Shown here one piece after another: positions 8,178-35,280 of a DNA stretch of 37,254 bases. Every line of letters starts with the position of its first letter. Position 1 is the first letter of the stretch. Source of the stretch: an uncultured Rikenella sp. (GTDB lineage Bacteria; Bacteroidota; Bacteroidia; Bacteroidales; Rikenellaceae); assembly GCF_947628055.1 (NCBI RefSeq), contig NZ_CANQYJ010000008.1:1-37254 (forward strand), written 5' to 3'. The notes under the pieces are model-generated. The model ran no database searches. It was not told where the DNA came from and was given only the letters and a program-made list of their open reading frames with translations. A program made the position numbers and the translations under genes.

Positions 8178-8217
8178 GGCTCGGTTTGTCGTCCAAAATA
8201 GGGAATACGACTCGGCT

Positions 8218-8271
8218 TACTCCCGTTCCAGCTGCAGCCAGATCAGCGCCGACGCCCCCAGCACCGCGGCC
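8218..8271 (-). pseudogene. Remnant of a ROK kinase 3' end
   Basis: Minus strand encodes ...AAVLGASALIWLQLERE*, paralogous to the C-terminus NAAVLGASALIWQQLERK* of the intact ROK gene; 24-bp identity (8238-8261 = 9915-9938). Confidence 0.7.
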
Positions 8272-9893: not shown

Positions 9894-10865
9894 TTACTTC
9901 CTCTCCAGTTGCTGCCAGATCAGCGCCGACGCCCCCAGTACCGCCGCATTCTTTCCGTCGATCCCCGACGGCAGCAGCTTCACCTTGTTTCTGAAGTTCG
10001 ACAGCATGTGCATCTCCATATACTTTTTGGTCGGCTCGAAAATATACTTGCCTGCCTTCGCCAACCCCCCGAACAGGAAAATCGCCTCCGGCGAAGTGAT
10101 CGTCACCGCATCCGCCAATGCCTGCCCCAGGATCATCCCCGTATATTCATACGCCTCGATCGCCAATCTGTCCCCATTGAGCGCCGCCTTCGTAATCATC
10201 TCCGCCGTCAAATCATTGTAGCTGATATTTCGGAACTCGCTGTCCTCGATATGATCCGCCAGCAGTTTGAACGCCGTCCGCTTGATGCCCGTAGCCGAGA
10301 CATAAGTCTCCAGGCACCCCTTCCTGCCGCATCCGCAGACCCGCGCACTCGCCGTCTTGTTGACAATCACATGCCCCAGTTCCCCCGCAAAGCTGTCATG
10401 CCCGTAGATCAGTTGTCCGTTCGCCACGAATCCGCTCCCCAGCCCCGTCCCTAAGGTCACCACGATAAAGTCCTTCATCCCCTTTGCCGCCCCGTAGACC
10501 ATCTCGCCGATCGCCGCCGCATTCGCGTCGTTGGTGATCAAGACCGGAATCGAAGGATAGTACCGCTTCATCTTTTCGACGAACGGGATCACCCCCTGCC
10601 AGATCAGATTGGCCGCATATTCGATCGTTCCGTTGTAGTAATTGGCATTCGGCGCCCCGATCCCGATCCCGATAATCTCGAACTCGCCGTCGAGGTTTTT
10701 CACCAAGCTCTGGATTCCGATATAAAGCTCTTCGAGGTATTGGTCGAAGTCCGGGTAATTCTTGGTAGGCACCACCCCTTCGCCGTACATATTCCCTTCG
10801 CGGTCCACTAATCCGTAGACCGAATTGGTACCCCCGATGTCGATCCCTACTGCTAATTGCTTCAT
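9894..10865 (-). CDS. ROK family sugar kinase / glucokinase-like
   Basis: MKQLAVGIDIGGTNSVYGLV (phosphate loop), GELGH, CGCGRKGCLETY ROK zinc motif. Confidence 0.92.
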   Translation of the reverse strand: MKQLAVGIDIGGTNSVYGLVDREGNMYGEGVVPTKNYPDFDQYLEELYIGIQSLVKNLDGEFEIIGIGIGAPNANYYNGTIEYAANLIWQGVIPFVEKMKRYYPSIPVLITNDANAAAIGEMVYGAAKGMKDFIVVTLGTGLGSGFVANGQLIYGHDSFAGELGHVIVNKTASARVCGCGRKGCLETYVSATGIKRTAFKLLADHIEDSEFRNISYNDLTAEMITKAALNGDRLAIEAYEYTGMILGQALADAVTITSPEAIFLFGGLAKAGKYIFEPTKKYMEMHMLSNFRNKVKLLPSGIDGKNAAVLGASALIWQQLERK

Positions 10866-14112: not shown

Positions 14113-14410
14113 CAAGAGGATCGAAGACAAGGGTATCCGGCAGGCTCAAGAGATGCGAAACATCTCAAAAAGTTTGGCTGCGCCTTCCTCCTGGCGCCTC
14201 GGCCATTCGAGCAAGCTCGATGGCACTCAGCTGCTGCGTCGGTTTTCTGGTTCTCTTTGTTCACAACCGAGCAGCGTTCCGAGGGCAGAGACCGCTTGCG
14301 GGCTATGCCGAGGTAGCGCGAGGAAAACAAGCGTAGCGAAGTTAAAGAGAACAGTTCCCTCAAACCGGGTACGTACGATAAAACCTACAGTTAATAACGA
14401 GCCCGCAGGA
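14113..14410 (+). repeat. Composite intergenic repeat, copy A
   Basis: Shares gggtatccggcaggctcaagagatgcg...catctcaaaaagttt, a 'ggcgcctcggccattcgagcaagctcga' module and an 'agagaccgcttgcgggctatgccgaggtagcgcgagg' module with 27.5-27.8 kb, 24.0 kb and others. Confidence 0.85.
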
Positions 14411-22976: not shown

Positions 22977-23957
22977 ATGAAATCGAAGGTATATACCATC
23001 ACGCTGATTATCATCGCCGTCATTACGGTGGTGGCTTTTATCGGCTGGTTCGTGCTCAAGCCTGCCCCCTACCTGATGCAGGGGACGGTGGAGGCCACCA
23101 GCTACAAAGTGTCGTCCAAAGTGCCGGGCCGGGTGGACAGCCTGACTGTCAAGCGGGGCGATACGGTTCGGAAAGGGCAATTCCTGTACGGCATCAGTTC
23201 GCCGGAGGTCTACGCCAAGCTGACGCAGGCGGAGGCCGCCAAATCGGCGGCTACGGCCATGCAGGACAAGGTCGACGCAGGGGCGCGGAAGCAGCAGATC
23301 CGGCAGGCTTACGAGATGTGGCAGCAATCGCTGGCCGGGTTGGAACTGGCGCAGAAGACTTACGACCGGGTGAAAAACCTGTATGACCAGGGGGTGGTGC
23401 CGGCGCAGAAGTTAGACGAAGCGCAGGCGGCGCTGAAAGCGATGAAGACTACTGCGGCGGCGGCCGAAGCGGGCTACAATATGGCGACCGAGGGGGCGCA
23501 GTGGGAGGAGAAGGCGGCGGCCAAGGCGCTGGTGGAACAGGCGGGAGGTGCGGTGAGCGAGGTAGAGTCTTATGTGACCGAAACGCGCCAATATGCGCCG
23601 GTGGACGGCGAGGTGTCGAGCGTGGTCTCGGAGAACGGCGAGTTAGTGGGCACGGGTTATCCGGTGGTGACGGTGGTCGATTTGTCGGACGCCTGGGTGG
23701 TGTTCAACATCAAGGAGACCTTGCTGCCTAAAATCCGGAGAGGAACGAAATTCGACGGTTATTTTCCGGCGCTGGACAAGACTTACGAACTGACGGTGGA
23801 TTATATCGCGGCGGAGGCTTCGTATGCGACCTGGGCGGCGACACGCACCAGCGGGGAGTTCGACGTGAAGACGTTCGAGGTGCATGCACGGCCGGCGGGA
23901 CGGATCGACGGTCTGCGGCCGGGAATGACCGTGACGGTGGACTACAACTCGTTTTAA
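22977..23957 (+). CDS. HlyD family efflux adaptor
   Basis: N-terminal TM; GTVEATSYKVSSKVPGRVDSLTVKRGDTVRKGQFLYGI; ...APVDGEVSSVVSENGELVGTGYPVVTVVDL. Confidence 0.92.
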   Translation: MKSKVYTITLIIIAVITVVAFIGWFVLKPAPYLMQGTVEATSYKVSSKVPGRVDSLTVKRGDTVRKGQFLYGISSPEVYAKLTQAEAAKSAATAMQDKVDAGARKQQIRQAYEMWQQSLAGLELAQKTYDRVKNLYDQGVVPAQKLDEAQAALKAMKTTAAAAEAGYNMATEGAQWEEKAAAKALVEQAGGAVSEVESYVTETRQYAPVDGEVSSVVSENGELVGTGYPVVTVVDLSDAWVVFNIKETLLPKIRRGTKFDGYFPALDKTYELTVDYIAAEASYATWAATRTSGEFDVKTFEVHARPAGRIDGLRPGMTVTVDYNSF

Positions 23958-23975
23958 ATGTTCGGTTATTATTTA

Positions 23976-24870
23976 CGCTCAAGCTGCGGCGGCATTTACT
24001 TTCTTGGGTGACCAAGAACCGAGCGACGTATCCGAGGGTAGAGACCGCTGGCGGGCTATGCCGAGGCAGTGCGAGGAAGACCGCAGGTCAAAGTAGAGAA
24101 AGAACCGACACAGCAGGCGAGTGCCATCGAGCTTGCTCGAATGGCCGAGGCGCCAGAAGGAAGGCGAAGCCAAAGTGCCTCCAGCCGGTTGCGCCTTGTC
24201 GAAGCCCGCGCACCCGCACGGGCTTCTCAAAGCAAAACGCGGCATTCCCGGGTCTGCCGTGTCTACCCGCAATTAAGGAAGACACTGATTCCAAAAGCGA
24301 CGCTTCCGGAGGTGCTTTCGCGTGCTCCTTATTACTTGCGATCGGGCCGGAGCCAGCGGGGCCGTTTAGGGTAATTACAGTCCGGTCGGTGTGCCCGGCG
24401 GCACCAGGTCTCCGCAGCCGGGGGCTCCGGCCTGTCATAGGGAGATCATGGCTGAAAAACCCTCTTGGATGCCGTTAAGCACAACGGCCCGCACGCTGAC
24501 GCGAGAAACTGTTTTCTCTGCATGCGAAAACACTTCCGGGAACGGATAGACACAGCAGACCCGGGAATGTCGTGTTTTGACTTGAGAAAGCCGGACTGAA
24601 TGACCGGCTTTCGACAAGGCGAAACCGATTCCCGGTGACTTCTTTGCTTCCTTTCTTGGTCACCCAAGAAAGGAAGGGCCCCCGCGGCCTGAGCGGGAGG
24701 AGAAGAAAAAACTCTACCCCCGGCGAGGGAACGCCCGTAGAACTTTCCGCCGGAGAGAAAGCCCGCCGGCCCGAGGCAATTATCAAAGAAAAAAGCCTCC
24801 GCGGCATGAGCGGTGAAGCGAAAGCCAAAAGCCCCACCCGGCATGAGGGTATTTCAGTTACTTTTTAAAG
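23976..24870. repeat. Composite intergenic repeat, copy D (about 0.9 kb, several modules)
   Basis: Matches 37.1 kb (ctttctt..gaccaagaaccgagc..), copy A modules in rearranged orientation (24018-24171), and an internal inverted pair (24191-24265 vs 24560-24622). Confidence 0.85.
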
Positions 24871-24886
24871 GAACTCTTATTATCGA

Positions 24887-27284: not shown

Positions 27285-27825
27285 TGTCTGGAACCGTAGG
27301 CTTATTTAGCACCGTTCTGTACGGGACTGTCGCTTTCTTGAAAGAAAGCGACGCAAAGAACTTTTCAGATAGCTGCGCTACTCCTTACGCTCCGCAGTCC
27401 TTTTTCTTTGAATCCTATTTTTGTGTCGGGCTTTCTCAATGGGCGCGTTAATGATTGTATTACCTTATGCGCGCCGCATTGGAAAGTCCCGACACAAAAA
27501 AACATTCAAGAATCGGGTATCCGGCAGGCTCAAGAGATGCGTTAGCATCTCAAAAAGTTTGGCTTCGCCTTCCTCCTGGCGCCTCGACCATTCGAGCAAG
27601 CTCGACGGCGCTCGGTTGCTGCGTCGGTTTTCTGGTTCTCGCTAACTGCGCTGCGCTTGTTTTGCCTCCGGCTTCCTCGCGCTACCTCAGCAGAGACCGC
27701 TTGCGGGCTATGCCGAGGTAGCGCGAGGAAAACGAGCGGAGCGAAGTTAAAGAGAACAGTTCCCTCTTGGAACACGTACAGTAAAACCTACAATTAATTA
27801 TAGGCCCTTGCAAGCGATCTCCCTG
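27285..27825 (+). repeat. Composite intergenic repeat, copy B
   Basis: 36-bp block identical to copy C, about 30-bp-arm palindrome (27417-27500), copy A modules, and long hairpin 27635-27757. Confidence 0.88.
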
Positions 27826-32698: not shown

Positions 32699-33328
32699 TT
32701 ATATCTTCGGTCTTTTCCAGAAAAGGTAGGTTTTGTTCTCTGTCCCCTCGCGCAGCCGTCTGATATTTTTGCGGTGCGTAATCAGCAGTACGGCAGCGAC
32801 TGCAATCCCGAAAATGATTTTGTATGGCGAGTGGAACCCGTCGATGATCAGGATATAGACTGGGAAAAGTATGCCGCCGGTGATCGAGCCTAACGAAACG
32901 TAGTGTGTCGCCGCCAGCACGATCATGAATGTGGCGAGGCCCATCAACATCGGCACGGGGGCTATGCCGAGCATGCAGCCTGCCAAGGTGGCAACACCTT
33001 TGCCGCCTTTGAATCCGGCGAAAATGGGGAAGATATGTCCCAGTATGGCTGCTGCGGTCAGGCCGATTTTCATGAAAAAGAAGGGGTCTCCTTCCAGTCC
33101 GGTGATGTGGGCTAACATCACGGCGCCGTATCCTTTTGCTGCGTCGATGATGAATACGGGCAGGGCTGCCCGCCGCCCCAGCACGCGTAGGGTGTTGGTC
33201 GCTCCGGCATTGTGGCTGCCGTATTCGCGCACGTCGGTGCTGTAAAACCATTTGCCGATCCATACGGCGCTGGGTATGGATCCGAGCAGATAACTGACTA
33301 TTATCAGTATGCCAATCGTTAGCGTCAT
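32699..33328 (-). CDS. plsY: Acyl-phosphate glycerol-3-phosphate acyltransferase PlsY
   Basis: YLLGSIPSAVWIGKWFYSTDVREYGSHNAGATNTLRVLG; GFKGGKGVATL. Confidence 0.93.
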   Translation of the reverse strand: MTLTIGILIIVSYLLGSIPSAVWIGKWFYSTDVREYGSHNAGATNTLRVLGRRAALPVFIIDAAKGYGAVMLAHITGLEGDPFFFMKIGLTAAAILGHIFPIFAGFKGGKGVATLAGCMLGIAPVPMLMGLATFMIVLAATHYVSLGSITGGILFPVYILIIDGFHSPYKIIFGIAVAAVLLITHRKNIRRLREGTENKTYLFWKRPKI

Positions 33329-33380
33329 GCCCTATAACCCGTTTGATGTCTGTTTATTCGTTCATTTATTCACTACCCTT

Positions 33381-33657
33381 GTGTTTGAGGGTACTGTTCT
33401 CTTTGTGAACAAAGAGAACCAGAAAAACTTTCTGAGATGCTTGCGCATCTCTTGAGCCTGCCGGGTACCCTTGTTTTCGATTTGTCGGGGTGCGGGGAAT
33501 CGGGCCGACATCATAAGGTTCAGTACCTAATCGGCCCGATTCCCGCGCCCCGAACCAAACTCAATGCAAGAGGACTGCGGAGCGTAAGGAGTAGCGCAGC
33601 TATCTGAAAGTCTTTTGGGTACCTTTTCTTCAGAAAAGGTACGGTTCCCTCCAATAA
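33381..33657 (-). repeat. Composite intergenic repeat, copy C
   Basis: 36-bp identity with copy B (33571-33606), 23-24-bp-arm palindrome (33485-33553), terminal hairpins 33396-33419 and 33619-33642. Confidence 0.88.
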
Positions 33658-33725
33658 GGCAAAGAATAAACGAACGAATAACAGACACAAAATTAGGAAA
33701 ATGGGAGGGAATCGCAAAAAATACT

Positions 33726-33733
33726 TAAATTTG
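33726..33733 (+). promoter_or_regulatory. -7 box TAAATTTG upstream of FtsX-like permease
   Basis: TAnnTTTG consensus, 25 bp before ATG 33758. Confidence 0.4.
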
Positions 33734-33757
33734 GCAGTCGCCGTTGTGCCCTCATAT

Positions 33758-35005
33758 ATGTTTAAGAAATCACTATTCACCCTCGGCCAGATTTACCGGA
33801 GTTGGCAGACGGCCATCGAAAGCGTCGTGATCAACAAGCTCCGCACCGGGCTCTCCCTGTCCGGCATCACCATCGGCATTTTCGCCATCATCACCGTCTT
33901 CACCCTCGTCGACTCGATGGAGATCAAAATCCGCGACAACGTCAACTCGCTCGGCAGCAACACCCTCTACATCGGCAAATGGCCCTGGGACGGCGGCGGC
34001 CAGTGGTGGAAATACTACAACCGGCCCCAGGTAAGCCTCAGCGAATACCACGAACTGCGCACCCTGCTTCCCCAAGCCCAAGCCATCGCTTTCGCCACCA
34101 CTTTCACACGCACCGTCAAAAACGGCTCCAACTACGTCGACAACACCTCCGTAATCGGAGCCACCTACGAATACGACCGGATGCGCAAGAGCGACATCGG
34201 CAGCGGACGCTACTTCACCCCGTATGAATCCGAACACGGCTCCCGGGTAGTCATTATCGGCCACATCGTAGCCGAAAAACTCTTTCCCGGCGAAAATCCC
34301 ATAGGCAAGGATATCCGGATTGGAGGCACCCGGCTGACGGTGATCGGCGTATTCGACAAAGCCGGGGACGACATGATGGGGATGAGCATGGACGCCAATG
34401 TGCTGATTCCGCTGGCCCTGGCCCGTAATTTCGTGAACCTGCACTGGGCCGGCACCGAGATGATCGTCAAAGGGCCCGACGGAGGCGACGTGCAGGAACT
34501 CAAGGCGGAAGTCGGAGCCATTATGCGCCGCCTCAGGCGGCTCAGCCCGCAGACCGAGGACAATTTCGCCGTCAACGAAATGAGCATTCTGAGCAATCAG
34601 CTGGACTCCATGTTCCGGCAGATCAACTTCGCCGGAGGCATTATCGGTCTGTTTTCGATCCTGGTCGGCGGCTTCGGCGTAGCGAACATCATGTTCGTCT
34701 CCGTCCGGGAACGAACCACCCAGATCGGCATTCAGAAAGCATTGGGGGCGAGGCCTTATTTCATTTTATTCCAATTTGTTTTCGAGGCGGTGATCCTCTC
34801 GGTTGCAGGAGGGGCCATCGGGTTGCTGCTGATCTTCTTCGGCGTACTGATCGTCAACAGTGTCAGCGACTTCACCGTGGTGCTGACTTTCGGCAATATC
34901 GTACTGGGGTTAGCTATTTCGTCGGCGGTAGGAGCCGTGGCAGGATTTTTCCCGGCATGGAGCGCAGCCCGCATGGAGCCGGTCAAAGCCATTTATCACA
35001 CCTGA
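33758..35005 (+). CDS. MacB/FtsX-like ABC transporter permease
   Basis: AIESVVINKLRTGLSLSGITIGIFAIITVFTLVDSM; FSILVGGFGVANIMFVSVRERTTQIGIQKALGARPYFILFQFVFEAVILS. Confidence 0.92.
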   Translation: MFKKSLFTLGQIYRSWQTAIESVVINKLRTGLSLSGITIGIFAIITVFTLVDSMEIKIRDNVNSLGSNTLYIGKWPWDGGGQWWKYYNRPQVSLSEYHELRTLLPQAQAIAFATTFTRTVKNGSNYVDNTSVIGATYEYDRMRKSDIGSGRYFTPYESEHGSRVVIIGHIVAEKLFPGENPIGKDIRIGGTRLTVIGVFDKAGDDMMGMSMDANVLIPLALARNFVNLHWAGTEMIVKGPDGGDVQELKAEVGAIMRRLRRLSPQTEDNFAVNEMSILSNQLDSMFRQINFAGGIIGLFSILVGGFGVANIMFVSVRERTTQIGIQKALGARPYFILFQFVFEAVILSVAGGAIGLLLIFFGVLIVNSVSDFTVVLTFGNIVLGLAISSAVGAVAGFFPAWSAARMEPVKAIYHT

Positions 35006-35164: not shown

Positions 35165-35280
35165 GGGCCGGCGGTGCCGCCGGGCACGCGAGCCGGGTCG
35201 TAACTTTCAGACTGCGGGCTCGTTATTAACTGTAGGTTTATTTTTAGCCTTTGCAAGCGACCTCCCCGTATCAGGATAGA
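35165..35280. repeat. Fragment F of the intergenic repeat family
   Basis: ctgcgggctcgttattaactgtaggttt (35212-35239) is the reverse complement of copy A (28 bp); gcctttgcaagcgacctccc matches 27803-27823 with two substitutions. Confidence 0.7.

Follow-up and report, generated by a model that had tools for sequence, protein, structure and literature searches.

The usual explanation for miniature hairpin elements in bacteria is a RAYT/Y1 enzyme; the hairpin of a REPIN has a tetranucleotide foot of the GTAG/GTGG type, and the ERIC sequences of enterobacteria comprise a short variant and longer ones, into which ~70 bp are inserted at fixed internal places. REP, REPIN and BIME sequences, which are associated with RAYTs (Y1 transposases), are high-copy, non-autonomous intergenic hairpins that form mosaics with inverted neighbours and are presumed to move by single-strand folding (PMC3116915, PMC2817692). 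MITE-like units of enterobacteria have TA ends and a TA duplication (PMC2759123). Very small elements are found in organelles: the double-hairpin elements of Allomyces mitochondria (Paquin et al. 2000, as cited in PMC2800124) and the repetitive hairpin-forming elements of sponge organelle genomes, which vary in frequency among close relatives, show no clear flanking duplication and have an unknown mechanism (PMC2800124). The Mpi and Tsr systems of Bacteroidales, as outlined in PMC4747536, are invertons, short segments bounded by inverted repeats (IRs) that invert.

The window, i.e. the whole stretch of 37,254 nucleotides of an uncultured Rikenella sp. that was analysed, contains between plsY (− strand) and an ABC-type permease gene (+ strand) a complete IR-bounded repeat of ~336 bp without inserted modules, copy C (33347–33687, − strand). 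The first-pass annotation had given it as 33396–33473, which covers hairpin H2 and stem S2 only. The left IR TGTCTGTTTATTCGTTCATTTATTC (33347–33371, + strand) and the right IR GAATAAACGAACGAATAACAGACA (33664–33687, − strand) were assigned from the sequence. Between them lie the terminal hairpin H2 GTTCTCTTTGTTCACAAAGAGAAC (33396–33419, − strand), in which the empty site of module R was placed at 33402/33403 by comparison with occupied copies; the empty site of module M (33420–33431, − strand), with the junction at 33426/33427 reading CCAGAAAA^ACTTT on the + strand; stem S2 (GAGATGC...GCATCTC; 33432–33451, − strand); a central GC-rich hairpin (33484–33560); and the terminal hairpin H1 GTACCTTTTCTTCAGAAAAGGTAC (33619–33642, + strand). 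The core hairpin sequence had 3 matches in the window and 0 were expected from shuffles.

Searching with a 281-base query from copy C gave ~40 places in the same genome with 81–95% identity over most of its length (40 of 242 preliminary candidates scored). Aligned copies share the plan IR, hairpin H1, stem S1, central GC-rich hairpin, stem S2, hairpin H2, IR, and are called carriers below. The sequences of the central hairpin and of H1 and H2 vary among carriers while self-complementarity is kept, as seen in the central arms of L022, L027 and L029 compared with the rest. The IR cores fall into four classes (CGAAC, CCTAC, CGATC and CGGAC), and the class was equal at both ends of the element in 44 of 47 cases (maximum of 32 in 10,000 shuffles). 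In 437 kb of sequence from the same genome (the window and 20 stretches not selected for the repeat) 49 carrier ends were counted; scaled up to 2.4 Mb, this number corresponds to slightly more than a hundred copies (~100–150). Of 15 paired carrier elements, none lay inside an ORF, and the flanking genes had all orientations. Element lengths were quantised, with 28 at 326–347 bp, 10 at 402–441 bp, 11 at 479–589 bp and 2 above 700 bp; copy C belongs to the class that comprises 28 of the 51 copies with paired ends. Several contigs of this genome (L139, L142, L146, L148 and L153) start within ~100 bases of a carrier end, indicating that the assembly was broken by the repeat.

Other repeats were seen in the window. 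A perfect inverted match of 28 bp, which includes an IR and 13 flanking bases, links 14381–14408 and 35212–35239, 20.8 kb apart, and may be left over from a recombination event that joined two distant IRs. Long imperfect inverted repeats occur within the intergenic region 23950–24886 (24219–24269 with 24543–24593, and 24186–24225 with 24588–24627), and a 54-nt direct repeat, 87% identical, is located at 8217–8270 and 9894–9947, overlapping the end of the ORF at 9894.

Read as the reverse complement and with slashes for junctions, copy C is CATCTCAGAAAGTTT/TTCTGGTTCTCTTTGTTCACAA/AGAGAACAGT and copy A (14120–14400) is CATCTCAAAAAGTTT/M/TTCTGGTTCTCTTTGTTCACAA/R/AAAGAGAACAGT; in copy C GAAAGTTT abuts TTCTGG and the hairpin GTTCTCTTTGTTCACAAAGAGAAC is intact. 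This alignment bore out the first-pass view of copy C as an 'empty' form that lacks M and R at exact sites, and R of copy A indeed sits inside the hairpin, in its 3' arm. The proposed sizes of ~69 bp and ~78 bp were refined: M is 67 bp (14176–14242, − strand) plus TT and R is 77 bp (14267–14343, + strand) plus AA, with AA on both of its flanks. Breakpoints were likewise fixed as supposed, and agreed across more than 30 M copies and across the R copies compared in H2-type hairpins, with the junctions AAAGTTT/GGCT...GTCGG(TT)/TTCTGG for M and (A)CAA or AGAA/CCGA...AGTT/AA for R. Hairpins of the H1 type carry the R insert at the equivalent position. Two hairpin types carry an R of exactly 77 bp (TTCACAA/77/AAAGAGAAC and TTCAGAA/77/AAAAGGTAC), and their empty forms are 79 bp shorter, so that occupation adds to the empty site either 77 bp and AA or a 79-bp unit ending in AA. 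The apparent target duplication would thus be 2 bp at most, given AA on both sides of the insert and one AA in the empty site, and is indistinguishable from a unit that ends in AA. Longer inserts of 147–163 bp consist of a module within a module at GGAGGAA^CCGAG.

Of the 74 S2 sites sampled in this genome, 36 were empty; M alone, next to an intact H2, was present at 8, an R-type insert alone at 7 and both inserts at 21, and the remaining 2 sites were rearranged or cut. These counts are not unbiased frequencies because the sample was partly gathered with M and R queries. The module-free form, as in copy C, was the commonest state in this sample. The palindrome of H2 is unbroken only in copies that lack R, which makes the empty state the likely ancestral one. 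Since R interrupts the palindromic H2 and the same module is found after AA in unrelated carriers, insertion rather than loss was likely the first step. Of the nested insertion or excision originally proposed to explain the modular structure, insertion and nesting were retained and precise excision was not, as recombination among copies can also spread presence and absence.

M and R had been described as two modules, which did not hold: they are one family in opposite orientations. The reverse complement of M reads (AA)CCGACGC...GGCGAAGCC(AA) and aligned to two R types with z-scores of 4.8 and 3.3 relative to dinucleotide shuffles, whereas the forward sequence of M did not (−0.7 and −0.3). A single covariance model, for which 24 diverse modules were used, detected both in copy A, M on the − strand (14187–14242, 74 bits, E 1.9e-13) and R on the + strand (14267–14323, 53 bits, E 3.9e-9); the shuffle test is the more independent evidence, since the model was trained on both types. 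Unrelated origins of M and R were ruled out on these two results. The model found five more modules in the window: M of copy B, with breakpoints as in copy A (27561–27627, − strand); the R-type insert of copy B, a larger, fully palindromic variant (27641–27748, + strand); a module in another hairpin repeat, after ACCAAGAA (24019–24076, + strand), and an M-type module in the same intergenic region (24105–24170, + strand); and a module after ACCAAGAA that is truncated by the contig end (37201–37254, + strand). At gathering thresholds, Rfam matched only a tRNA in the whole window and no family matched the module, so that a known RNA family was ruled out.

The module starts with CCGA, is 67–79 bp long and consists of an imperfect hairpin of 57 nt and a variable tail. 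Among 140 distinct modules with an intact start, collected genus-wide, the preceding dinucleotide was AA in 127 and AG in 9. In some module types only, the tail is a mini-hairpin with a GAA loop beside the 57-nt hairpin. As the tail differs among module types, the far boundary is less well defined. Terminal inverted repeats were not found, the ends CCGA... and ...AGTT or ...AAGCC not being inverted copies of each other. Modules were inserted in the arm of H hairpins, at the adjacent CCAGAAAA site, in other modules, in a CCAAGAA hairpin family and in a GC-rich CCGGAGCC hairpin family; 23 of them were present in the 437 kb of unselected sequence. A second GC-rich intergenic hairpin family with modules (CCGGAGCCACCCCCGGCG...CGCTGGCTCCGG) was seen at L273 5150–6070, L262 2805–2965 and L324 9850–9920.

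The explanation that we consider probable is a miniature, structure-dependent mobile module nested in invertible repeats, variants of which spread by recombination. Copy C would then be an unoccupied carrier, an intergenic hairpin repeat between two IRs, and M and R would be two insertions, in opposite orientations, of one hairpin module that inserts beside AA, mostly in or next to another hairpin. The module would be non-autonomous, probably travelling in the form of a folded single strand and relying on an enzyme provided in trans. Occupied and empty forms would subsequently spread or vanish among the ~100–150 copies by recombination (gene conversion), whichever way an individual copy may have changed, and whole carriers would be inverted at their IRs.

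Related genomes, mostly draft metagenome assemblies, were compared at orthologous places, in particular those of the sister species G003 and G006 (~119 kb of alignment, flanks ~95% identical). Between plsY and the permease gene, both species, whose contigs match the MAG loci L091 (G003) and L095 (G006), have an IR-bounded segment different from copy C, in opposite orientations; at the same place, no IR-bounded element was present in Millionella (L093) and in Ca. Rikenella faecigallinarum (L094). Four clean inversions of orthologous carriers, a feature missed in the first-pass annotation, were found between the two species, at the plsY site (L091 1129–1373/L176), at the orthologue of window 23950–24886 (L192 1668–1969), at L296 5550–5851 and at L328 5311–5538. 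The carrier thus behaves as an inverton at the species level, with both orientations at one locus between species, and its inversion at IRs of ~15–25 bp points to a site-specific recombinase. Empty sites, previously predicted for homologous loci, are present among paralogous copies in the genome of the window and also at an orthologous locus in a sister species (L324 9850–9920 vs G006 C5), where one clean occupied/empty pair was obtained: CCCCCGGCG/CAGG/GCTGCAACC in G003 and CCCCCGGCG/ACCCGACGCTGCC...GAAGTTAACG/GCTGCAAC in G006. A module was present in G003, G006 or both at 12 orthologous places, of which 3 were shared and 9 differed; at most differing sites the whole interior had changed rather than the module only. 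Orthologous carriers with the same IRs and gene flanks and wholly different interiors were found at L324 3015–3455, L262 880–1215 and L292 180–600.

These swapped interiors suggest that recombination between copies probably also spreads the present states, and the same exchange between species that are ~95% identical, together with the many similar copies, in which shared blocks of homology flank the M and R sites on either side, would suit a history in which the module entered the carrier long ago, in one event or a few, and all states seen now result from ectopic gene conversion, with no ongoing mobility. We regard this history as unlikely, though it is the most serious competitor: the module also occupies other modules and unrelated carriers, with AA preceding it in almost every case, and the one orthologous presence/absence pair concerns a different carrier, so that several insertion events are needed.

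The hairpin of the module covaries strongly. In the structure obtained with RNAalifold, 94.7% of the cells were paired and both sides changed in 9 of 11 pairs; the covariation score was 0.502 vs 0.175 in shuffles (0/500 as high), and pairing dropped to 28–51% when one side was slid. G-U cells were few (4), for which reason a DNA hairpin fits at least as well as an RNA hairpin. The covariation could partly stem from template switching between hairpin arms. Taken further, M and R would be by-products of replication through hairpins (template switching, quasi-palindrome correction) and no mobile unit would exist; the rarity of G-U cells agrees with this, as do the joint changes of arms with complementarity kept in the H1/H2 variants, the central hairpin and the palindromic R-type insert of copy B. 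However, template switching duplicates sequence from nearby, whereas the 57-nt unit with its conserved CCGA start and AA flank recurs in unrelated places across the genus, which renders a purely replicative origin very improbable.

The module is common in Rikenellaceae, where 60 genomes out of 150 and 10 genera out of 22 were positive, and nearly absent from the rest of the order; under a stricter limit, one of 295 genomes drawn from the order was positive besides the window's own. Similar DNA was absent from phage and plasmid collections at blastn sensitivity and the exact 19-base junction was absent from viral contigs, and a phage or plasmid origin was ruled out on this basis. The Y1 transposase (PF01797) gave no match in 8/8 genomes of the genus (five of them drafts <95% complete) and a positive control in E. 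coli and others, so that a RAYT/REP origin was ruled out for the genus genomes searched. IS110 transposase (PF02371) gave no match in the same number of genus genomes (8/8, five drafts <95% complete), by which an IS110-type insertion was ruled out likewise. No core-site motif of an integron-like attC cassette was recognised by eye.

Serine recombinase genes are present in all eight genomes of the genus, and the genome of the window has nine tyrosine recombinase matches; both kinds are candidates for the carrier inversion. These enzymes could also serve a circular module that is inserted and excised like a cassette by a serine recombinase or a similar enzyme at an AA core, and a shared 2-bp core would produce just such an occupied site, the empty site plus module plus one AA. 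We give this mechanism little credence, less than replication alone: attachment-site symmetry around the AA was not recognised, IS110 was undetected, and the serine recombinase matches in the window's own genome are one gene split over two frames (G000 C129:1638–2068), uninterrupted in relatives, and one weaker match. Short-read misjoins of repeat copies could mimic module gain, loss and inversion, as several contigs start or finish inside carriers and most compared genomes are drafts, but this artefact is hardly credible given that the M-H2-R arrangement also occurs in a two-contig genome (G001), that the inverted sites are flanked by collinear genes on single contigs and that quantised lengths are hard to produce by misassembly.

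The relatives share a conserved promoter of the Bacteroidota type upstream of plsY (TTTG, 19 bases, TAnnTTTG; window 33328–33760; L091, L093, L094 and L095). Copy C, lying between this promoter and the plsY start codon, would be part of the plsY mRNA leader, which carrier inversion or module gain would alter. More tentatively, and as a possibility rather than an expectation, Rikenellaceae may possess a two-level system, in which a single-strand hairpin module with a mover that is neither Y1 nor IS110 resides in more than 100 invertible carriers, and these flip and swap interiors so rapidly that species ~95% identical to each other already differ, which would reshape the leaders and intergenic regions of numerous genes. 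An abundant, structured and nested module family that varies between sister species, with no RAYT/Y1 found, makes the search for another mover tractable. The carrier and module family also breaks short-read assemblies of Rikenellaceae and is relevant to inverton calling from metagenomes.

The module resembles REP, REPIN and BIME sequences as a high-copy extragenic palindromic unit in mosaic arrangement. It differs from them in that its genus has no Y1_Tnp match (8 genomes), in its CCGA start after AA, in its covarying 57-nt hairpin with a tail and in its nesting within a larger invertible repeat. Without the RAYT that defines them it was not filed as a REPIN, and in place of a GTAG/GTGG-type foot it starts with CCGA, after AA in 127/140. 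With the Allomyces and sponge elements it shares the small hairpin, an occupancy that varies between relatives (9/12 places, G003 vs G006) and a duplication of at most AA; unlike these, it resides in a bacterial chromosome, where any duplication is limited to the 2-bp AA and a single carrier offers two favoured slots. Classical MITEs differ from it by their terminal inverted repeats. The carrier, for its part, is a short IR-bounded segment seen in both orientations (between species), like the Bacteroidales invertons, and its IR core CGTWCG (CGTTCG, CGTACG) resembles what we take to be the Mpi core consensus, a lead only; in contrast to these invertons it has more than 100 related copies per genome and an interior packed with hairpins, and no invertible promoter was identified in it. 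ERIC, finally, is also a palindromic intergenic repeat, whereas the modules described here are inserted repeatedly, in carriers unrelated to one another, and the carrier itself inverts.
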